Positions 12,461 through 36,118 of a stretch of DNA of 36,118 nucleotides are shown here, one piece after another. Source of the stretch: a virus; the IMG/VR virus record IMGVR_UViG_3300043437_000170, positions 1-36,118 of that record; one strand, given 5' to 3'. Every line of letters begins with the position of its first letter. Position 1 is the first letter of the stretch. The notes beneath the pieces are model-generated. The model was not told the origin of the DNA and did not search any database. It saw nothing but the letters and a program-made list of their open reading frames with translations. A program made the translations under genes and the position numbers.

Positions 12461-12715
12461 ATGCTTACAGGCTTCATCTTGCTCGATATCTTAAAGGCAA
12501 CTGATGAGGTTGATGAGCTGCTCAACAAGGATGACGAGTGGATGGATGGCATTATCAACACATCAGACATCAGCCTGATTTATGAAGATACCGAAAGCAA
12601 GAACTGCGTGATCATGTTGATGAGTAGCGAAAGGGAAATAACAGTAAAGCAATCACTGGATGAAATTATTCAAAAGATTAAACGAGCAACTGCGATCACG
12701 TTTATCACGCAGTAA
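12461..12715 (+). CDS. Hypothetical protein before the tail chaperone
   Basis: An 84-residue acidic protein from ATG 12461, one base after the previous stop. The frame continues upstream to 12425, but that part overlaps the zinc-ribbon gene. It starts MLTGFILLDILKATDEVDEL, followed by strand-like NCVIMLMSSEREITVKQ and a helical end. It overlaps the next gene by 56 nt. No known family is recognised. Position suggests a small tail or head-tail component. Confidence 0.6.
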   Translation: MLTGFILLDILKATDEVDELLNKDDEWMDGIINTSDISLIYEDTESKNCVIMLMSSEREITVKQSLDEIIQKIKRATAITFITQ

Positions 12716-13286
12716 ACAGCAGAAGCCATTGCGGCCAATGGTCGAATTGTTCAAGGACGCAACACACAAGTACTACCGTTTCCCGAAAGAATTGAATCTG
12801 CCACTTGAGCGGTTCAGCATGTCGATGGGCCTAATGGAGCGCATCAGCTCGGGGCTATCGGGTAGCGAGATGGACAAGATATTGTCTGGCATGGAGAAGG
12901 CATTGAGTGCTGGCTTGAGCAATCCAAAGAATGCAGCAGTTGTGGCCGCTTACATCCATGTGATTCGCGAGCGGCAAGACACGGTTATCCATCGAGACCT
13001 ATTGCTCAACCTTGCAGCAACATGGGTGGTGAGGGATGACGAAGATCCTGGAATCATTGACCCAGAGATCCACAAGCAGAAACTTGAATTATTCGAAGGG
13101 ATGTGCAAGGAGGCTTCCCACGATTTTTTTACTCTCTTGGATATCGATCCTCTGATGCCCTTGCTAACTATGTCTCCACAAGACTTTCAGATCTTATGGG
13201 AGTACAACGTGGAGGCGCAGCGAAAGCTGACTCAAGTGCTCCAGCACTTAACTACTCACCTGGATACAGGGCGAAAAAAGCAGTAG
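12660..13286 (+). CDS. Tail assembly chaperone candidate (gpG-like)
   Basis: A 208-residue mainly helical protein two genes before the tape measure, the usual position of tail assembly chaperones. A basic start (MKLFKRLNEQLRSRLSRSKQ) is followed by MSMGLMERISSGLSGSEMDK, an IHVIRERQDTV helix and a C-terminal helix EAQRKLTQVLQHL. An in-frame ATG at 12738 is an alternative start. Inside it lies a run of seven T (13124-13130) placed as GAT TTT TTT ACT, which would let ribosomes slip -1 into the overlapping frame at 13103-13429, as in lambda G/GT. The role is inferred from position and this architecture; no chaperone-specific motif is visible. Confidence 0.6.
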   Translation: MKLFKRLNEQLRSRLSRSKQQKPLRPMVELFKDATHKYYRFPKELNLPLERFSMSMGLMERISSGLSGSEMDKILSGMEKALSAGLSNPKNAAVVAAYIHVIRERQDTVIHRDLLLNLAATWVVRDDEDPGIIDPEIHKQKLELFEGMCKEASHDFFTLLDIDPLMPLLTMSPQDFQILWEYNVEAQRKLTQVLQHLTTHLDTGRKKQ

Positions 13287-13429
13287 ACGATATTCGCGTG
13301 CAGGCCATGAATCTTTGCGGTGGCAACATTGTCGAGTTCAATACATTGATGGCCTCAGATGTTTCAACTTATTTGCTTAAATTTGAGCTGTTCATAAAGC
13401 AGCAAAAAGATGGCTCAAGCAGAAGTTGA
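13103..13429 (+). CDS. -1 frame continuation of the tail chaperone (GT-like) or separate overlapping gene
   Basis: An open frame in the -1 register of the 12660 gene, ending at 13429, 20 nt inside the tape-measure gene. If entered by slippage at 13124-13130 the fusion would have about 156 residues of the upstream protein plus about 98 new ones (YSLGYRSSDALANYV, DDIRVQAMNL, YLLKFELFIKQQKDG). If independent, it could start at GTG 13103 or, more plausibly, ATG 13196 (MGVQRGG). Bases 13131-13286 are open in both frames. The part beyond 13286 must be read in this frame, since otherwise 120 bp before the tape measure would be empty. Confidence 0.6.
   Translation: MQGGFPRFFYSLGYRSSDALANYVSTRLSDLMGVQRGGAAKADSSAPALNYSPGYRAKKAVDDIRVQAMNLCGGNIVEFNTLMASDVSTYLLKFELFIKQQKDGSSRS
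13124..13130 (+). promoter_or_regulatory. Candidate -1 ribosomal frameshift site (T7 run)
   Basis: Seven T in the zero frame as ..T TTT TTT A.. fit the X XXY YYZ slippery pattern, with perfect re-pairing of both tRNAs after -1 slippage. It lies at about residue 156 of the 12660 product. No clear downstream stem was identified by eye. Confidence 0.45.
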
Positions 13430-16154: not shown

Positions 16155-18139
16155 GATTCTTGATTGATGGCATCGACCGAGGCCAGCCATTGAATCCGGA
16201 GGACTTTGGCATCACGATAAATGAAGATGACAGCATTGGAGCTCGCATAGTTTCCTACGATGCGGACCTAATCTTTGGAGGCGATGTATTCACCTACCTA
16301 TACAGCAAGCTCGCAAGTTCGGGCTACTGCGAACTGGTGCGAGTGAATGTTCAATACTTGTGTGCGTCTGGTAACTGGCTCGGCTTGGTCAATGGGTACA
16401 TCATTGCAACCGAATCAACATTCCTATTGGACCGCTGCGAGGTTAAGACTAAGATCTATGATGAAAGCTTTAGCACCAAAATCAACAACAACAAGGCGAT
16501 TCCATTCTCGATGGATCTCACAACGTCAAAGAATGGCGCAGTAATCACACCTCCGACAAAGTATGAGCTGTGGGTGTTTAGAGCTCAGCCAACTGTATCA
16601 TTCTATCCGCCAGCTTTTGGCTATACTGTTTATGATGTATTCAAGCATTTAGTTGCTTGCATGAGCGATGGCTTGATTGACTTTGATTCGAACTACTTTG
16701 CTGCAAACTATCCGCAAAATGAAGTGCTGTTCTATACCAGCGGTGAATCGATTAGGATTAAGCAAGACGTTGAGGTGCTTGCTTCATTCGAGACTCTTTA
16801 CAACGCATTAAGGCTGAAGTTGAACCTTGGCCTTGGCATCGAGAATCAAGGCAATGGAAGGCCATTGCTGCGTATCGAGCCTGCTGCATACTTCCAGCAA
16901 TCGGTTGCTTCTACAACCTTGATTGATCAGCCAGACATCGAAATGAAGTTTGACACGAAACGACTATATCAAGCGGCTCAGTTTGGAAGTGACTTGGTGC
17001 TTGAGGCTGGCCAATGCGATAACGGTGACACGCCTTGCGAGTTTGTTCAAACGCCATTCAGAGGCTTCAGGGATGAGAAGTTCGGATTCATTGGTCAGTG
17101 CAACACAAGCAATGTATTGCAACTAAAGACATCAGATATTGTATTTGATACCAATGTGATTCAGGATATTGTGGTATTCAACAACACTGGCTATGATACC
17201 AATGGCGTTGTTATAATGGCGAACTGGGATGGATACTACGGAGCATTTACTGCCAGGGCAAAAATATATGATCCTTATGGAATCGGTAATGCTATTTATA
17301 ACGGAAACTTTACAAACGAATTTGTTTCTGCCAATTGGCTGAGTGGTTTCCCGAATAGCCTTGAGTCATTCCTTCAACCATTCAATCCGGCAACAACTGT
17401 GTTCTTAGCAAGGGCAACGGTTGACACGCAGTGCTGGAATGTCGATGATGACCAGTTCTATTCTTATGCGACTGCCACTGCAACCTTCTTGAATTATCCA
17501 AATGAGATCACTGATGCTGGCAACAACTTCAGCGGCTCTACTTATGTGGTGCCATTCACAGGCATCTACACATTTAATGCGAAGATTCAGCTCGATGGCT
17601 TGACACTTGTGACAGGCAACAAGATTGGCTTTGCAAGTATAAAGCACTATGATGCAGCGGATGCAGAGATTCAGACTATCGATGGTCCGCAGATCACATC
17701 GGTTGCAATTAACTTCAGTGAGCTGACTGTGACCGCAACGATTGTGTGCAATGCCGGTGACTTGGTGCGCACGGATGCATCTGTGAAGATTGTCACCCCT
17801 GGTCCGATTGCCAGTCAGTGTGTGTTGTTTCAATGGACCGACATTCCAAGCGGCACGGTTTATCGCACTGAGTTCTCAGGCTCTGGACTTCCGCTTGCGC
17901 CAACTACATTGGAGCCCGTTGACATCAACGACGTGCAAGCCTACCTATACAAGTTTAAGCGCCCGTTAACGATGGCAGAGATAAACGCCATCACAAGTGA
18001 GACATCGAAGCCAATCTTATTGGGTAGGCAAGATGATATCATTGCGGTTTCTCCGACCTACATCAAAGCAATTAACATTGAATCAGTGATGCGCAAGAAT
18101 GCGCAATTCGAACTAAGATCCAACAAGCTACTGCCATGA
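16139..18139 (+). CDS. Large distal tail / baseplate protein
   Basis: A 666-residue protein directly after the tape measure, where distal tail and tail-tip proteins are encoded. Residues 1-110 (AAELRFLIDGIDRG, ARIVSYDADLIFGGDVFTYL) are beta-rich and fit a tail-hub-like start. Around residues 430-560 (TYVVPFTGIYTFNAKIQLDG) is a C1q/TNF-like beta-sandwich pattern, which in phages often binds carbohydrate or trimerises. The end (ILLGRQDDIIAVSPTYIKA) is again beta-rich. I see no enzymatic motif. It overlaps both neighbours (16 and 4 nt). Tail location is secure from context; the specific role is inferred. Confidence 0.7.
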   Translation: MAAELRFLIDGIDRGQPLNPEDFGITINEDDSIGARIVSYDADLIFGGDVFTYLYSKLASSGYCELVRVNVQYLCASGNWLGLVNGYIIATESTFLLDRCEVKTKIYDESFSTKINNNKAIPFSMDLTTSKNGAVITPPTKYELWVFRAQPTVSFYPPAFGYTVYDVFKHLVACMSDGLIDFDSNYFAANYPQNEVLFYTSGESIRIKQDVEVLASFETLYNALRLKLNLGLGIENQGNGRPLLRIEPAAYFQQSVASTTLIDQPDIEMKFDTKRLYQAAQFGSDLVLEAGQCDNGDTPCEFVQTPFRGFRDEKFGFIGQCNTSNVLQLKTSDIVFDTNVIQDIVVFNNTGYDTNGVVIMANWDGYYGAFTARAKIYDPYGIGNAIYNGNFTNEFVSANWLSGFPNSLESFLQPFNPATTVFLARATVDTQCWNVDDDQFYSYATATATFLNYPNEITDAGNNFSGSTYVVPFTGIYTFNAKIQLDGLTLVTGNKIGFASIKHYDAADAEIQTIDGPQITSVAINFSELTVTATIVCNAGDLVRTDASVKIVTPGPIASQCVLFQWTDIPSGTVYRTEFSGSGLPLAPTTLEPVDINDVQAYLYKFKRPLTMAEINAITSETSKPILLGRQDDIIAVSPTYIKAINIESVMRKNAQFELRSNKLLP

Positions 18140-19782
18140 GTTATACATCTCTACCTTATCAACCGATTATCTTCAACTCAACTTTGCCTGAAGGCTGCGA
18201 AGGCTGTGGCTCGGAGTATTCGCAGTTGGTGGATTTCAATGACCAACTATTCTGGCAGCTCGAGGCTGGGCAGTGCGGCGAAGTTGAGTTCTTTGACGAG
18301 ACATTGGTAGGGCCTTGGACACAGGATGGCAGCACCATCACAGGCGGTGGCACAAGCACAGGCGGCTACATAGCAAGCTACTTGCGGTATGATGTGGTTC
18401 CTAACTTTATTGTGACCATAACCGTAAGCGATATTATTGGCGTGCTTCGGGTATTAATAAACGGCGGCTCGTTTCTCGATGTGTCAACACAAGGCACGCA
18501 TTCGCTATACTTAACGACATCAGACCTAACAAGCAATGCAATACTGATAGCCTTTAGCAATGGCGGGCAGCCATTCGATGGTTCTTTCGTTATCGACAGC
18601 GTTGTACCAGTTCCAAACGGCGGCTTATTTGCCGGCATTGTAGATGCGCAGACCTTGGCAGTTGTTGAGCGGCTTGATCCAGTAATCACAACAAGCCAGC
18701 AATATTTGACTGCTGCCATCGACATGGCTGATGTGGATATCGAGCCTGGCTGCTATCGATTAGCGATTGCGGATTACTGCACCAATACTTGCGGCCAGTA
18801 TTTTATTTACAACCCTTATTTCAATGGCAACCCTTTATGCCTCGATTGCTTGCCTATCGGTTGGACTTCCACACCCGTAACGGGTTCTAATAATTGGAAC
18901 GTAGGTAACGGTGAAGCGACCATTGATTTAACGGCGATAGGCAATGCTACAAATTTGGTTTCAGTAACAGAGCTTTGCGAAGACACGGACTATTATGTCG
19001 AGATTGAAGTGGAATCGATAATCAATGCACGCCTTCGCTTGCAAGTTGATGGCAATAATTATGGCACCGCAATAACTACGGCAGGCACTTACAACTTCAC
19101 AATCACAGTGACAGACAGCGGCCCACTAAGTTTGTTCGGCTCTCAGTTCGGTGCTTCGCTCGATGGCGAAATAGTTGTTAAGCGTGTAACCGTGCGAGCT
19201 GATAAGAACTGGGTAAGCTACGACCAATACAGCGACCTTATCACCGTTGGCGATTACTCCGACAATTGCAAGTTCTTCAAGATCGAAGGCTGCAATGCGG
19301 AGAATCAATTCGGCCTTGCATTCAATGGCACATCGTTCTTGCCAGGCATCCGCTTGGAGGGCCGCAGATTCCGCGCTCAGTACAACTCGGATGTTGACTT
19401 GTTTAGATATGCAAGCGGCAAGGCTGTGACATCTTATGCAGATATTCGCAAGCGCGTATCTTACTTCTTTGGGCAATTGCCTGAGTATGTATTTGACTTC
19501 CTTTCGATCATCACATACTTTGACAACTTGTATGTAAACGGCGAGCTTTACTCGCCTGCTGAGGCTGACTTCCCAGACATCGAGTACAACGATGGGAATA
19601 ACCTTGGCTCGATTACCATCGACTTGTATAAGAAGAACGAGAAGGTGCGTAAGACGGTTTGTACGGCAGCGGATGCCAACTGCCTACCTTCGATATTGGA
19701 TTTAGGTGACGAGCCTTTTATACTGGCTCAGGATGGGGATAGGCTACTAACACAAAACAACATCAACTTGTATCAGGAATAA
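18136..19782 (+). CDS. Tail protein with two carbohydrate-binding-like modules
   Basis: A 548-residue beta-rich protein. Two segments look like related jelly-roll modules: residues about 55-155 (WTQDGSTITGGGT ... VTITVSDIIGVLRVLINGG) and about 240-350 (WTSTPVTGSNNWNVGNG ... VEIEVESIINARLRLQVDG). Both begin with GxW-type turns and share the sequence of V.I.V..I...LR..V.G followed by a G-T..F/L.. strand. Cysteine pairs occur (CEGCGSEY, CTNTCGQY, LCLDC). It ends LAQDGDRLLTQNNINLYQE, a closing style typical of this phage group's virion proteins. Probably a tail-tip or adhesin component binding surface glycans. Start overlaps the previous stop (ATGA). Confidence 0.65.
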   Translation: MSYTSLPYQPIIFNSTLPEGCEGCGSEYSQLVDFNDQLFWQLEAGQCGEVEFFDETLVGPWTQDGSTITGGGTSTGGYIASYLRYDVVPNFIVTITVSDIIGVLRVLINGGSFLDVSTQGTHSLYLTTSDLTSNAILIAFSNGGQPFDGSFVIDSVVPVPNGGLFAGIVDAQTLAVVERLDPVITTSQQYLTAAIDMADVDIEPGCYRLAIADYCTNTCGQYFIYNPYFNGNPLCLDCLPIGWTSTPVTGSNNWNVGNGEATIDLTAIGNATNLVSVTELCEDTDYYVEIEVESIINARLRLQVDGNNYGTAITTAGTYNFTITVTDSGPLSLFGSQFGASLDGEIVVKRVTVRADKNWVSYDQYSDLITVGDYSDNCKFFKIEGCNAENQFGLAFNGTSFLPGIRLEGRRFRAQYNSDVDLFRYASGKAVTSYADIRKRVSYFFGQLPEYVFDFLSIITYFDNLYVNGELYSPAEADFPDIEYNDGNNLGSITIDLYKKNEKVRKTVCTAADANCLPSILDLGDEPFILAQDGDRLLTQNNINLYQE

Positions 19783-22449: not shown

Positions 22450-22526
22450 AAAAACTAAACTTTTGCCGCACTAAGTCTTGCGGCTCGCACATCATAAACC
22501 AACCAACCACTAAAGCAACTGCGTAA
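22446..22526 (+). CDS. 26-residue mini-gene linking methyltransferase and portal
   Basis: The frame reads MKKLNFCRTKSCGS and ends in PTTKATA. It starts in the preceding stop (ATGA) and its TAA overlaps the portal ATG (TAATG), so it fills the gap exactly. This is the same overlap style as all real neighbours, which argues for translation, at least as a coupling leader that hands ribosomes to the portal start. Two cysteines and a basic start could bind metal. It is too short to judge by composition. Confidence 0.45.
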   Translation: MKKLNFCRTKSCGSHIINQPTTKATA

Positions 22527-24433
22527 TGGCACTTACTACTGATGAGATTGACAAGATTGTAAACAAGTTCGCTTATCTGCACAAGGGATGGGAGAATGCG
22601 GCCACTAAGAGCCCGATCAATCCCATCACAAAGGAGCGCACTGGTGTTACACAATATCCAGAATACTGGCCGGGCTATAACTATGCCGCTAAGATGTATG
22701 ACAGCATCTTGCCGCATACCCGGCCAGACATTTACCCTGCACATCTTCTCAGCGTGAGAGCTCCAAATCAGACCGATGCACAGGCTGAATACATCCGAGC
22801 TAACTACAAGCCCACAACACTCAGCGTGTTTGAGGACTTCAAGGCTACGATTAGTCGTGCGTTCGCAGATCAGAATTGGAGCATTCGATACAGCCAAGAG
22901 CTCGAGCCAATCTTTGGGCAAGATACTTTCCAGCGTTTTGTGAACGAAGAGATTGCAAAGTTTGGATCGCTTGAGATGTTCATCAAGAACATGGTGCCGA
23001 CATTGAAGCTCATTGATCCCAATGGCATCATTGCAATCGAGCCTGATGACATCGACACAGTGATGGATGATGAAGGCGAAGAGATTGTCTCTAATGAGCT
23101 AATTCGCCCGATGCCTGAATACTATTCTTGCAAGAGCATAGTTGGTCAGCAATTTGGCGAGTATTACATGGTCATTACTGATGACAGGACCGAAGTAAAG
23201 GTGGGCACAAAGACTGAAAAGAGCGGCATTGTGTTGGAGATTTATGACAACATGAACATCTGGAAAGTTTACCAGGTGGGCAAGAAGTCAGACATGACCT
23301 TCAGCGAGCCAGTGCTTTACTTCGCACACAACCTTGGCTATGTGCCATGCCACAAGCTTGAAGGGATGCCGCAATTAGTTGGAGGCGAGATTGCATTTCA
23401 ATCGCCATTCATCACAGCGGTGCCATTACTCGATCAGGTTATTCTCGATGAGTCATACTTGCAAATCAGCAAGGCAACAAGTGCCTTCCCTTTTATGGTG
23501 GCCCTTGGTGAGATTTGCGAGTTCGTGGATCGTGAAGGCAACAAGTGCCAGGACGGCCAAATCTTTGATCCAATCAATGGCGGTTACAGGACTTGCGGTT
23601 CATGTAACGGGTCCGGAGTGAAGTCAAGATTTTCGCCTACTGGCATGCTTTTGATTAAGCCAAAGACATCCTTAAGCGAAGGTGACAGTTCACTAAGCGG
23701 AGAATACTTGAAGTTTGTTTCACCTCCAATGGATACATTGACATTCTTGCGAGGCGAGATTGAGCAGCAGATGTCAAAGGCAAGACGGATATTGCATTTG
23801 CCTTCATCAGACGAAGCGTCAACTATTGGCGAGGCATCGACTGCAACAGGATCATTGAACAAGGTGCGTGCGCTGTATGCATTCATTAAGCCTATCTCTG
23901 ACCAGATATTCAACTTGTATGAGTTCTGCTTGGTGACAATGGGGAAGATGCGCTATGGCGAAAACTTTGGAGGGGTGAACTTGGTTTATCCAACAAGCTT
24001 CGACATCAGCACTCCATCAGATTACTTGTCAATCATTAGCGAAGGTGTGAAGGCTGGAGTGCCTCCATCGATTACATTCAGCAATGTTTACAACTACATT
24101 CGTGCGATTCACTATACCGATGAAGAAACCTCAGCAGTGTACGACCTTATCATCAATGCCGATGAGTTGCTCCTGATGAGCAGCGCGGACATCGTGGCAA
24201 GGATTGCAAATGGCACGGTTGAGCGTTACCAAGATGTGATTCACCACAGTGCACCTCAGCTCATCATGGAATTGATTCGCAACTTCATCCCTACTGAAGA
24301 TGCGCAAAGATTCATCGACCTTCCAATGGACGAGCAAGTGGCAGCACTTAACCGATTGGCATCCGAGCGTGTGGCAGTTAAGTTGGACCCGATACAACAA
24401 GCACAACAGGATCTTCTGAATGGCATCATTTGA
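22526..24433 (+). CDS. Portal protein
   Basis: A 635-residue protein with portal features: long helices (YSILPHTRPD region, GYNYAAKMY), the DQVILDESYLQISK stretch, the GEIEQQMSKARRILHLPSSD segment and a helical C-terminus (EQVAALNRLASERVAVK). It precedes the MuF-like and scaffold genes, the normal portal context. Unusually a four-cysteine site (C331, C341, C357, C360) with CGSCNGSG interrupts the middle, like the zinc modules of DnaJ. The dodecameric portal ring is the DNA entry and exit gate. Length is on the large side. The call rests on context and helical pattern rather than one catalytic motif. Confidence 0.75.
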   Translation: MALTTDEIDKIVNKFAYLHKGWENAATKSPINPITKERTGVTQYPEYWPGYNYAAKMYDSILPHTRPDIYPAHLLSVRAPNQTDAQAEYIRANYKPTTLSVFEDFKATISRAFADQNWSIRYSQELEPIFGQDTFQRFVNEEIAKFGSLEMFIKNMVPTLKLIDPNGIIAIEPDDIDTVMDDEGEEIVSNELIRPMPEYYSCKSIVGQQFGEYYMVITDDRTEVKVGTKTEKSGIVLEIYDNMNIWKVYQVGKKSDMTFSEPVLYFAHNLGYVPCHKLEGMPQLVGGEIAFQSPFITAVPLLDQVILDESYLQISKATSAFPFMVALGEICEFVDREGNKCQDGQIFDPINGGYRTCGSCNGSGVKSRFSPTGMLLIKPKTSLSEGDSSLSGEYLKFVSPPMDTLTFLRGEIEQQMSKARRILHLPSSDEASTIGEASTATGSLNKVRALYAFIKPISDQIFNLYEFCLVTMGKMRYGENFGGVNLVYPTSFDISTPSDYLSIISEGVKAGVPPSITFSNVYNYIRAIHYTDEETSAVYDLIINADELLLMSSADIVARIANGTVERYQDVIHHSAPQLIMELIRNFIPTEDAQRFIDLPMDEQVAALNRLASERVAVKLDPIQQAQQDLLNGII

Positions 24434-25354: not shown

Positions 25355-25621
25355 ATGAGACACCTTATTCTAAGTAGTGGCCGTATCATTGAAGCCTCTG
25401 ATATGGTGGCCGAGCACCTTCTTAAAAAGAAAGGCGCACGAGAGTTGACATTGCAACCAATTAACACACCTACAATATATGCCGATCAAACCGGAGGAAG
25501 CACTGGAACTGGTGAACTTCCTAAATCTAAACGAAGTAGAAAACCTGGAGGAAGCGAAGGAAAAGTTTCAGGAGAACTGGGTAAACAGCAAGGAGCTAAA
25601 CGACAAGCTCGGAAAGATTAA
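25355..25621 (+). CDS. Small head-region protein overlapping the scaffold gene
   Basis: An 88-residue protein. Its first half (MRHLILSSGRIIEASDMVAE, then HLLKKKGARELTLQPI) looks like a normal small fold and fills 25355-25478, where no other gene exists. Its second half is read from the same DNA as the start of the scaffold gene in another frame for 143 nt and is low-complexity and basic (GELPKSKRSRKPGGSEGK). Either both frames are used or a shorter functional N-terminal domain is followed by a tolerated tail. It has a promoter right before the ATG. Confidence 0.6.
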   Translation: MRHLILSSGRIIEASDMVAEHLLKKKGARELTLQPINTPTIYADQTGGSTGTGELPKSKRSRKPGGSEGKVSGELGKQQGAKRQARKD

Positions 25622-26303
25622 TGGAACAATTGCTCATGTTGCTAAAAGAGCATTTGAGCCCTTTGGAGTTACGCTCACTGAGGAAGATTTCAAAGACAAG
25701 AAGGCGCAAGATGTCCTACGCATGGCCTCGGAGCGTGCTCGTGATGCTTATGAAAAGCAGCAAGAAGAGTGGCAGCAAAGAGCTGACAAGTCTGGAAGCG
25801 AAGAGCTGGTGAAGGAGTGGGAGAAAAAGCACAAGAGCCTTGAGAAGAAATTGACTGAGGTTGACACTGCACGCCAAGAAGCAATCAACCAATTCGAGCA
25901 GTTCAAGAATAAGATGGTTGAGGAGCAGAAGCAAAGCAAGATTAATCATACTTTCGAGCGCGAGCTTTCATCCATCAAGCTTGATCCTTCTGTGAATGAA
26001 TTCACCATTAAAGGCTTTAAGGCTACCATTGGCGAGAAGTATGCAATAGACTTGGAAGATGATGGCAACATCTATGTAAAAGACCGCAACAGCGGAGAGC
26101 GATTGAAGAGCAAGGAGAAGGCTGGCTCATTCCTAAACTTATCTGATGTTCTACTTGCGGAAGCAACTGCTGCCGGTATTATCATGAAGAATCCATCAGC
26201 AGGGCAAAGAGTGCCAAGACCAGGTGCGCCAATGATGCCGCAATTGGAGGGGCAGTCTGATAAGAAGATCAAAGGCATCAACCCAAGATTCTTTTCGAAG
26301 TAG
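25479..26303 (+). CDS. Capsid scaffold protein
   Basis: A 274-residue protein between the MuF-like and capsid genes. A long charged coiled coil covers about residues 20-160 (EEALELVNFLNLNEVENLEE, QQEEWQQRADKSGSEELVKE, KKLTEVDTARQEAINQFEQF). A C-terminal globular part follows and it ends QSDKKIKGINPRFFSK, where a short basic segment could bind the capsid, as in other phage scaffolds. No separate head protease is recognisable in the window. It shares 143 nt with the previous gene in another frame. Confidence 0.78.
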   Translation: MPIKPEEALELVNFLNLNEVENLEEAKEKFQENWVNSKELNDKLGKINGTIAHVAKRAFEPFGVTLTEEDFKDKKAQDVLRMASERARDAYEKQQEEWQQRADKSGSEELVKEWEKKHKSLEKKLTEVDTARQEAINQFEQFKNKMVEEQKQSKINHTFERELSSIKLDPSVNEFTIKGFKATIGEKYAIDLEDDGNIYVKDRNSGERLKSKEKAGSFLNLSDVLLAEATAAGIIMKNPSAGQRVPRPGAPMMPQLEGQSDKKIKGINPRFFSK

Positions 26304-26714: not shown

Positions 26715-26722
26715 TATCTTTG
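26715..26722 (+). promoter_or_regulatory. Capsid promoter -7 box (TATCTTTG) and leader
   Basis: TATCTTTG stands directly behind the terminator. No good -33 box was found. The leader to ATG 26821 is about 95 nt, with a 5-bp hairpin GTGCC/GGCAC (26745-26749 / 26758-26762) and an AT-rich end. Confidence 0.55.
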
Positions 26723-26820: not shown

Positions 26821-27870
26821 ATGTCTATATCTCGCATTCTATCGGAGTGTCCTAATGTGCAAATGTCACTTAGCGAACTCTTTATTGAAGTTGGTCAGCG
26901 TGAGCAATTGCCTTTCTTAGAGTTTTTGCTTTCACCTGAAAACACTAAACTTATCCGCACTGAAGTTTCTCCAGGCGGTGGAAAATTAAAAACCGTTCAA
27001 GCTCGTTGGATTCAGCGTTTGCCTGAGACCGAAGTTGAAGACGATGGTGACATCCTTGCTTGTACTTCAACCAACACTTACGGTGACAGCACAACAACTT
27101 ACACAGTTGATGTGACTGATACTTACCAAGCATCGCAGTTGATCAATGCTGCTGACATCGCTCGTCATTGCCAAGAGAACTCTCGCTATGTGCTTGAGTC
27201 GGTTATGCGTTTGATGGATGTTCTTGATCGCAAGGTTGCTTCTGTTGCTGCTGTTCAGGCTGTTGCTGACATCGGAGAATGGGGTACTGAAGTATCAGGT
27301 TACTACACTGTGTCTGGTGACTGCTTGCGCATTGCTACTCGTCAGAGTGGCGGTCAAGCATTGAATGAGTTCGCACTTGCTGACATCCTTCAAGCAACTC
27401 GCATGGCTAACTATCCAGGTGCGCCTGTGGTATTTGGTGGTGCTGAGATGCAGCGTTATGCTAATGCGGTGCAAGCTGGTTGCTGCACGCAGTTCGGCAT
27501 CGACTTGTTGGCTATCAGCCAGCAGAACGGATTCGGCTTTGCTTACGATTCTCGCGTTGCTGCTGCTCAAGGTTCGCAGCTTAAAAACTTGGTGACAACT
27601 GCCGGAGCAATCCAGTGGTTATCATTCAACTTGGCTGATTGGAACACAGGCATCACTCCTGTTGCTGGATCAAACTACTCTAAGACTTTGGTGTTTACAC
27701 CTGCTGGTCTTCCAGTTGATTTGACCATGAAGGATGATTGCGGTAACTTGTCAATCGTGTTGACTACAACTGGAAAGATTGTAACTCTTCCGACTGACAT
27801 TTACGAGTCTTCTGACAAGTATGCTGGTGTTAATTATGTGAACTGTGTTGAGATTGTAAACCCGTCATAG
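26821..27870 (+). CDS. Major capsid protein
   Basis: A 349-residue protein after the scaffold gene, with a private promoter/leader and the strongest codon bias of the window (GCT, CGT, ACT, GTT), both signs of heavy expression. The start MSISRILSECPNVQMSLSEL and long middle (SRYVLESVMRLMDVLDRKVA, GAPVVFGGAEMQRYANAVQA) fit a mixed alpha/beta HK97-type capsid. It ends VNYVNCVEIVNPS with TAG at 27868-27870. The -1 frame stays open from just before this stop to 27947, 3 nt before a terminator, and codes a typical virion C-terminus; see the extension entry. The capsid call rests on context, length and expression signals. Confidence 0.85.
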   Translation: MSISRILSECPNVQMSLSELFIEVGQREQLPFLEFLLSPENTKLIRTEVSPGGGKLKTVQARWIQRLPETEVEDDGDILACTSTNTYGDSTTTYTVDVTDTYQASQLINAADIARHCQENSRYVLESVMRLMDVLDRKVASVAAVQAVADIGEWGTEVSGYYTVSGDCLRIATRQSGGQALNEFALADILQATRMANYPGAPVVFGGAEMQRYANAVQAGCCTQFGIDLLAISQQNGFGFAYDSRVAAAQGSQLKNLVTTAGAIQWLSFNLADWNTGITPVAGSNYSKTLVFTPAGLPVDLTMKDDCGNLSIVLTTTGKIVTLPTDIYESSDKYAGVNYVNCVEIVNPS

Positions 27871-27947
27871 GGTCGGTGAGTTTACTCTCGCAAGCCGATG
27901 AGGACTTATTGACCCAGAGCGGATTGGATAATCTAACCACGCAATAA
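27851..27947 (+). CDS. -1 frame C-terminal extension of the capsid protein
   Basis: After TGA at 27848-27850 the -1 frame is open to TAA 27945-27947, which lies 3-5 nt before the terminator stem at 27950. Beyond the slip site it reads VIGSVSLLSQADEDLLTQSG then LDNLTTQ, about 27 residues. LLTQ plus flanking acidic residues resembles the end of the 18136 tail protein (DGDRLLTQNN). This argues that the DNA is translated, giving a long minor capsid form, as T7 gp10B does. A simple indel (real or assembly error) near the capsid stop is the main alternative. No start codon is proposed for it. Confidence 0.5.
27858..27864 (+). promoter_or_regulatory. Candidate -1 frameshift heptamer A AAC CCG
   Basis: In the capsid frame the heptamer is split A AAC CCG, i.e. 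X XXY YYZ with XXX=AAA and YYY=CCC, three codons before the stop. Downstream are CGG (27874-27876) / CCG (27895-27897) and GAGT/ACTC (27878-27881 / 27884-27887) pairings and GGGTC (27870-27874) / GACCC (27911-27915), any of which might stall ribosomes. Confidence 0.4.
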
Positions 27948-27949
27948 AG

Positions 27950-27979
27950 AAGGGCGGCTAAATGGCCGCTCTTTTTTTT
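27950..27979 (+). terminator. Intrinsic terminator after the capsid gene
   Basis: GGGCGGC (27952-27958) pairs with GCCGCTC (27965-27971, one G-T pair) over a 6-nt loop, followed by eight T (27972-27979). The last T is the first base of the next -7 box. Confidence 0.85.
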
Positions 27980-27986
27980 ATCTTTG
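27979..27986 (+). promoter_or_regulatory. Promoter -7 box (TATCTTTG) fused to the terminator
   Basis: TATCTTTG begins in the T-run of the terminator. ATG 28001 lies 14 nt beyond the box. No -33 TTTG is visible. Confidence 0.5.
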
Positions 27987-35254: not shown

Positions 35255-35900
35255 CTTAAGCAGGCTTTATTTGGTGACAATTACGGTTGTCCTTGCATTG
35301 ATGCTGATCAGGACTTGCGGAAGCTTGGCCTCAACCGAGCTTGAACTGGAGAGGCTTGATAATGCCAATGCCGAGTTTACCATCCGCATTGCTAATGACT
35401 CGGCCAAGATTTACAGCCAGTCGCAGACCATTGTAAGCAGCGAGCGCAAGTATGCAGAGCTTGAGAAGATCAACGCAGCACTTGGCATCAAAGCAAGCCA
35501 AGCCGTGCAATACAGGACCAAGACAGTGATTCAAACCGAGTTCGAACTTGGTGACACGGTGTACATCGATAGCTTTCCGCACTTGCGCCTGCCAAGATCA
35601 TTCGGCCGTGAAGGTAAATGGCTATCCATAGGAGGCACGATAAACCGCGTAGGAAGGCTTCAGATTGACTCATTGATAATTCCGGTATCTTATACCGTTG
35701 CCATCGGAGATACGCTGCGTAAAGGCTCTATTTTGCGAAAGCGTGACAAGGTGGTCCGCATTGCAGTTGACAATCCTTATGTTAGCGTGACCGGCATCAG
35801 CAATGTTGTAATTCGCCAGGATAAAAAGTGGTGGCAAACCGATGCGGCCAAGATTGGACTCGGGGCGTTTATTGGTTTCGGGCTGACACGCATAAAATAA
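35241..35900 (+). CDS. Membrane-anchored coiled-coil (spanin-like) protein, complete copy
   Basis: A 219-residue protein with an N-terminal membrane anchor (about residues 8-24, LYLVTITVVLALMLIR, followed by TCGSLAS), a coiled coil at about 28-80 (LELERLDNANAEFTIRIAND), a beta-rich part and a hydrophobic Gly-rich end (GLGAFIGFGL). Placement at the end of the lysis genes and an inner-membrane anchor plus periplasmic coiled coil recall Rz-type spanins or Bacteroidota DUF6549-like proteins. No overlapping outer-membrane lipoprotein (Rz1) gene was found. The last 164 residues are identical to the partial gene at 1-495. Confidence 0.7.
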   Translation: MEQPNLSRLYLVTITVVLALMLIRTCGSLASTELELERLDNANAEFTIRIANDSAKIYSQSQTIVSSERKYAELEKINAALGIKASQAVQYRTKTVIQTEFELGDTVYIDSFPHLRLPRSFGREGKWLSIGGTINRVGRLQIDSLIIPVSYTVAIGDTLRKGSILRKRDKVVRIAVDNPYVSVTGISNVVIRQDKKWWQTDAAKIGLGAFIGFGLTRIK

Positions 35901-35966
35901 TTGGCTTGATTTTCAGGCACTTGCGTTTTTTTGCGCTGGTGGTTTATTGTTTTGTTTGTTTTTCGC

Positions 35967-35996
35967 TTGCGAATTCAAAAAAGGGGTGTACATTTG
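35967..35996 (+). promoter_or_regulatory. Second copy of the early promoter
   Basis: TTG at 35967-35969 and TACATTTG at 35989-35996 repeat the element at 562-591 unchanged. In a circular genome these are one and the same site. Confidence 0.65.
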
Positions 35997-36025
35997 CCTC
36001 AACAAAACAACGAAACAAAAACGCC

Positions 36026-36118
36026 ATGACAACTCAAGTAACAATCGAAACCGAATGGAAACGCAGAATGGATTTAGTAGAAAGCCCTGCATTTGTTAAA
36101 CTTTGCGCAAAATACGCT
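36026..36118 (+). CDS. Start of the small early gene, 3' truncated by the window
   Basis: Thirty-one codons of the protein described at 621-815 (MTTQVTIETEWKRRMD). Every base matches the left copy across 621-713, so this part is identical between the two ends even though the flanking DNA differs at three non-coding positions. The gene runs off the window edge. Confidence 0.75.
   Translation, partial: MTTQVTIETEWKRRMDLVESPAFVKLCAKYA

Follow-up and report, generated by a model that had tools for sequence, protein, structure and literature searches.

The capsid gene of this virus very probably ends in a programmed −1 frameshift cassette, through which a minority of ribosomes would make a longer, minor form of the shell protein; we put the probability of this reading at roughly 0.88, the product itself not having been seen. 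The window, by which we mean the whole stretch of 36,118 nucleotides analysed here, carries at the 3′ end of this gene a heptamer, a short spacer and a hairpin (Table 1), an arrangement that is, as far as sequence can tell, a standard −1 frameshift cassette. The heptamer lies in the context GTA AAC CCG TCA TAG, and a slip at CCG would append VIGSVSLLSQADEDLLTQSGLDNLTTQ, a tail of 27 residues that ends at the TAA at 27945-27947. The last stop upstream in the −1 frame is the TGA at 27849-27851, so the shift must fall between 27852 and 27870. A first-pass annotation, made from this sequence alone, had described a capsid stop at 27870, a −1 frame that stays open to 27947, shortly ahead of the terminator, and an A AAC CCG at 27858-27864 in the overlap between that frame and the capsid end. 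All of these coordinates hold, and the heptamer is in the right frame. The −1 frameshift that it had predicted is supported by the −1 tail, heptamer, covarying stem and −1 coding signal kept in relatives, without proof at the protein level; the hairpin at 27870-27915 was not among its observations.

Table 1. Features of the window that bear on the capsid gene and its putative extension.
Feature	Position	Strand	Basis	Remark
TAnnTTTG box	26715..26722	+		promoter-like for Bacteroidota; upstream of capsid gene
Portal gene	22526..24433	+	phrog_7376, E 1.2e-18	upstream; backs capsid assignment
Capsid gene, 349 aa	26821..27870	+	ORF; AlphaFold model	downstream of portal gene
−1 frame ORF	27852..27947	+	open to TAA 27945-27947	purifying selection in relatives
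Slippery heptamer A_AAC_CCG (putative)	27858..27864	+	sequence	AAACCC kept in relatives
Spacer, 5 nt	27865..27869	+		heptamer to stem
Frame-0 stop TAG of short form	27868..27870	+	sequence
Hairpin, 19 base pairs, presumed frameshift stimulator	27870..27915	+	fold, covariation	encodes part of tail
Intrinsic-terminator-like hairpin + T run	27946..27979	+	fold; T run in sequence	stem about 27946-27977
Tail-region protein	18136..19782	+	weak profile match, E 0.17	in-frame C-terminus FILAQDGDRLLTQNNINLYQE resembles capsid tail

The 349-residue product is treated here as an HK97-fold major capsid protein on the strength of a structure model and of gene order. By sequence it matched no PHROG or Pfam family and no PDB capsid, and a search of 50,697 phage records returned no capsid match at E ≤ 1e-5 and, with the limit relaxed to 10, just one (E 0.8). 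Comparing profiles with gp17 of Polaribacter phage P12002L and with the major capsid protein of Flavobacterium phage 11b gave nothing useful. The first AlphaFold model was unusable (pLDDT 31); the second, which included more distant relatives (28 sequences, identity down to 65%), reached moderate confidence (pLDDT 50) and permitted a fold call. The PDB structure matches shown for this second model by VIA-align were HK97-fold capsids and encapsulins, with Z 12.9 against mycobacteriophage Douge and about 10 against HK97, and its top match among predicted viral proteins was the major capsid protein of an uncultured phage (E 5.5e-7). The neighbourhood is that expected of a capsid gene: the upstream portal was identified by PHROG, and between the two genes lies a scaffold-like candidate (25479-26303), a charged protein of coiled-coil appearance that was judged by eye only. 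The box upstream of the capsid gene follows the Bacteroidota promoter consensus, TAnnTTTG.

Relatives were collected from IMG/VR in seven scans; the window capsid, the portal, an alignment and capsids of more distant relatives served as queries. Because five of these scans took the best 80 of 205, 157, 82, 187 and 182 relatives, the census is a sample. At least 422 records had a capsid match; 12 of them lacked the 3′ end, and the remainder represent 155 distinct capsid 3′ ends including the window, with capsid relatives 65-98% identical to it. A −1 tail of 25-28 residues was found in 117 of the 155, of which 115 were recognized by a regular expression and two (L254 and L266) were assigned by hand because their frame, their heptamer and their kin L321 match. 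AAACCC, in frame and followed by G or A, is present in 112 of the 117 tail carriers. The tail is absent from 32 of the 155 ends, and 27 of these 32 also lack AAACCC, which is replaced in varied ways (GTT AAC CCT, AAC GCT, AAC TCA, AAT CCT and others). The heptamer test for programmed −1 frameshifting, namely the right frame, an open overlap and conservation, is therefore met at the sequence level. The A that precedes AAC was kept in 78 of the 81 carriers examined; given that 6 of the 137 fourfold columns of the capsid gene reach 95% conservation, its conservation alone is not exceptional. In the other five of the 32 tail-less ends (L040, L304, L073, L311 and L313), AAACCC is retained and the tail is gone, possibly through recent losses. 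In six loci (L246-L249, L269 and L280), a similar tail follows a UGA in frame 0.

This comparison also bears on the alternative left standing by the first-pass annotation, an indel: the capsid gene might once have held the tail in frame and then been broken, through an error of sequencing or assembly or through a recent mutation. Such an event could not be excluded from a single genome; however, the 117 distinct 3′ ends, which come from many separate metagenome contigs, hold the tail in the same −1 frame, and in no case among the 155 does it follow the capsid in frame with no intervening stop. The indel is thereby excluded for practical purposes, with next to no chance remaining, and the non-conservation of the −1 peptide that would have refuted frameshifting did not materialize. 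L302, with 65% capsid identity, still has GTA AAC CCG TAA, followed by the tail VTSNTNLLLENGDDLLLQNGDLLIL, and L254, L266 and L321 keep ACA AAC CCG TAA in front of a very different tail (...FQDGFDFQFQSGEDYDFQ in L254). The tail of the latter three is an unlike FQ-rich repeat of similar length behind the same heptamer, which suggests that the cassette can be swapped.

The history of the tail was followed on a tree inferred by maximum likelihood from 141 capsid genes; the last 36 nt were excluded, and the 14 of the 155 genes with an incomplete 5′ end were omitted. Tail presence or absence needs 16 changes on this tree, at least 14 of them on supported branches, and such repeated gain or loss implies that the tail is not essential in all these phages. 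Among 14 independent pairs that differ in the tail, the heptamer agreed in 10.5 (mean over random pairings), opposed in none and was unchanged in 3.5 (sign test with the UGA loci excluded: median p 0.001, range 0.001-0.008); an earlier tree of 107 rows had given agreement in 6 of 8 pairs (p 0.031). That heptamer loss accompanies tail loss argues against the tail being a small protein in its own right, translated through reinitiation or coupling once the capsid ORF has ended. The window does contain an in-frame GTG before the motif, and ATG, GTG or TTG occurs in 22 of the 83 carriers examined, but in the other 61 none of these codons lies between the end of the capsid ORF and the motif, and any start there would be masked by a stable stem. 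We consider a separately initiated peptide improbable.

The hairpin that follows the heptamer provided further support for frameshifting. In the window its minimum free energy is −23.2 kcal/mol (z −3.49), and none of 200 shuffles was as good. When the window structure was placed on 69 distinct relatives, 84.8% of the cells were paired (74.0% in shuffled sequences), 123 cells showed double changes (40.6 shuffled) and covariation was 0.380 (0.216 shuffled); the pairing, double-change and covariation measures were each reached by none of 500 shuffles, and two of the five covariation measures were not significant against shuffles (39/500 and 80/500). Sliding the structure by 1-3 columns lowered pairing to 30-53%. 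RNAalifold recovered the outer stem without being given a structure, with double changes in 7 of 9 pairs, and the stem arms of relatives include GGGTC/GACCC, GGGTTAA/TTAACCC, GCGTC/GACGC, TGCACCAATA/TATTGGTGCA and TGCTCCAATA/TATTGGAGCA. Over 86 distinct −1 regions, z was ≤ −2 in 75, with a median of −3.7 (60 shuffles each). The spacing commonly studied for stimulators is 5-9 nt, according to the accessible text of PMC5009743, and the 5-nt spacer of the window falls inside this range. By these comparisons, a conserved, covarying and putatively stimulatory structure at about 5-9 nt is met, the exceptions being L012 and L251, which have no significant stem (z near 0), and L254 and L266, in which the stem begins about 3 nt past the heptamer.

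We then considered whether the peptide itself is maintained. The pN/pS sample comprised 98 of the 115 loci, only those with a stop directly after AAC plus one further codon, and yielded 71 distinct tails, 44 of 27 residues and 27 of 26 residues. For these two length classes, pN/pS beyond the capsid stop was 0.30 and 0.37 in the −1 frame, as against 0.92 and 0.67 in frame 0 and 1.84 and 1.78 in frame +1. The −1 frame was free of stops in every one of the 71, all of which contained stops in frame 0 and also in frame +1. Purifying selection, as inferred from these ratios, is confined to the −1 frame. These data also speak to the possibility that only the RNA hairpin matters, for mRNA stability or processing, and that the open −1 frame is a by-product, as might be supposed from a strong, covarying hairpin located just before a terminator. 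The last nine tail codons, which lie essentially outside the stem, remain constrained in the −1 frame (pN/pS 0.31 and 0.27), indicating that RNA structure alone is insufficient as an explanation, and the −1 frame is open in every tail tested. A purely structural role is very improbable.

If the cassette operates as proposed, most ribosomes would stop at the TAG at 27868 and release the 349-residue capsid protein. With tRNA-Asn and tRNA-Pro on A_AAC_CCG, the hairpin 5 nt ahead would pause the ribosome and the two tRNAs would re-pair with AAA and CCC; both steps are inferred, and a tandem slip is the simplest reading. A minority of ribosomes would thus read 27 more codons, stop at 27947 and produce a 375-residue form (348 capsid residues plus 27), which may be built into the shell alongside the short form. 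That the shell contains some longer subunits, in the minority, is inferred by analogy with T7. The accessible text of PMC5009743 reports that U_UUC_CCG is over-represented in enterobacterial genomes, which suggests that sites with CCC in second position, such as A_AAC_CCG, may shift little in E. coli.

The tandem character of the slip is less settled. Five carriers (L124, L130, L136, L275 and L281), belonging to two groups of relatives, have GTC CCG TAA or similar, without AAA, and retain the tail. In L124, L130 and L136 the −1 frame is closed three codons upstream, which leaves CCG as the only codon able to slip in the open stretch. The core event may thus be a slip of tRNA-Pro that AAA assists. 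Taken further, these carriers would allow tRNA-Pro alone to slip on C_CCR while the stop is read slowly, A_AA being merely helpful. We regard this version as unlikely, since AAACCC is kept in 112 of 117 carriers and the window, with some relatives, has a sense codon between CCG and the stop. The tandem slip on A_AAC_CCG remains our preferred reading for the window.

The six loci with the tail behind UGA appear to reach it by another route. They have no heptamer; the capsid ORF ends with UGA, followed by A, and the tail continues in frame 0 (ITELNLLTEDGSDLTTEDNTNLLV in L246). The stem begins 4 nt past the UGA; two compensatory changes preserve it in L280 as compared with L246. When scored with an HMM of the extension, five of the six peptides outscored all 1000 shuffles of the L246 peptide; that of L280 did not. 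In four of these loci, UGA ends 5 or 6 ORFs of at least 120 aa per locus (a mechanical six-frame count, capsid ORF included), which makes it probable that UGA acts there as an ordinary stop. The tree includes five of the six, and they group as a single clade (100/100) within a set of 23 rows (100/100) that also has 15 −1 carriers and 3 tail-less rows. These observations suggest UGA readthrough as the natural reading, its product not having been shown; reinitiation is not excluded, because an in-frame TTG, or an ATG in L249, is a possible start. A wider proposal would be that selection keeps the long form by interchangeable routes, namely the A_AAC_CCR slip in most lineages, a slip of tRNA-Pro alone ahead of a stop in a few, and UGA readthrough in a single clade nested among frameshifting kin, that each route is driven by a hairpin a few nucleotides past the recoding codon whose sequence itself encodes the tail, and that the tail is a portable surface repeat of the virion, shared with the C-terminus of a tail-region protein. 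Taken jointly, we give these suppositions an even chance.

The capsid tail is a repeat of about eight residues. The first-pass annotation had noticed its likeness to the closing residues of the protein encoded from 18136; the likeness is visible, but by score it is weak. When 1041 window ORFs were searched with the extension HMM, the C-terminus of this protein was the sole other match, at E 0.17, and at this value we do not claim homology. The similar repeat, at 19720-19779, is kept in 45 of the 50 fetched relatives (L162-L211), those reaching the stop. These include L196 and L197, whose contigs carry tail-less capsids (L055 and L038). Our favoured inference, at low confidence, is that some of the subunits display the capsid tail as an exposed patch for binding or stabilisation.

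Several other features of the window were recorded. The closest named records were Polaribacter phages for the portal (22%) and Flavobacterium phage 11b for the terminase (30%), and TAnnTTTG boxes numbered 22 on the coding strand versus 10 on the opposite strand; from the nearest named phages and these boxes, a Bacteroidota host is likely but not shown. With the patterns used, genome contigs yielded no relative of the capsid or the portal. The gene that precedes the tape measure gene (12660-13429) ends with CGA AAA AAG CAG TAG; a canonical A_AAA_AAG is present at 13274-13280, and the −1 frame is open to 13429. The arrangement resembles the frameshift typical of tail-assembly chaperones (G/G-T type), which would probably give this phage two −1 shifts. 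Direct terminal repeats of 713 bp (1-713 and 35406-36118, 97.6% identity) indicate that the contig probably closes on itself, although the copies differ. A search of Rfam gave five matches, every one under its gathering score.

A few cultured phages are known to make frameshifted capsid forms, whose purpose is unclear. The present family is varied, with at least 117 distinct carriers, repeated tail loss and one apparent change of recoding mode, and it permits comparative tests of the role of a minor capsid form and of how one ribosome-facing hairpin serves different recoding events. Gene callers that run from the start codon to the frame-0 stop, as is standard, would miss the tail, which matters for proteomics searches. 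A search of titles and the beginnings of abstracts, with most subscription papers outside its reach, found nothing on this capsid family.

Recoding at the 3′ end of capsid genes is itself established. As far as the available portion of PMC5009743 goes, it is known from T7, T3, Lactobacillus phage A2 and Listeria phages, A118 and A500 shifting by −1 and PSA by +1. In T7 (gene 10A/10B) and T3, as proposed here, the capsid end is read by a −1 shift that gives a minor form with a C-terminal extension. The accessible part of PMC3185693 describes the T7 minor form as about 10%, with 52 extra residues, and T7 capsids without the long form as equally stable. T7 has a G_GU-type site with the terminator CCCC over 200 nt away (PMC5009743, seen in part), whereas the present family has A_AAC_CCR with a covarying stem next to it and a repeat tail of 27 residues, and no sequence kinship between the two was found. 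PSA, according to the same partial source, shifts at a proline codon, by +1; here a short repeat tail would be added by −1. A2 and T3 add an Ig-like domain, which the window family does not. An Ig domain is larger than 25-28 residues, and the tails of the carriers are too short to hold one. In E. coli dnaX, the hairpin follows the heptamer at short spacing. The dnaX signal likewise combines an X_XXY_YYZ heptamer with such a hairpin, but its heptamer is different, here the stem lies inside the tail coding sequence, and, unlike in dnaX, inspection by eye revealed no conserved upstream Shine-Dalgarno-like element. The A1 protein of Q-beta is made by UGA readthrough of the coat gene. It resembles the L246 clade only, in which a coat stop UGA is also followed by an in-frame extension; the clade differs in being tailed dsDNA phages with a short repeat tail and an adjacent stem, and its readthrough is only inferred. 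The principle is known; what is new is that it appears in an unmatched capsid family, whose tail is of another type, whose heptamer is unusual and whose covarying stem lies within the sequence encoding the tail, and that the mode of recoding has apparently switched in one clade.
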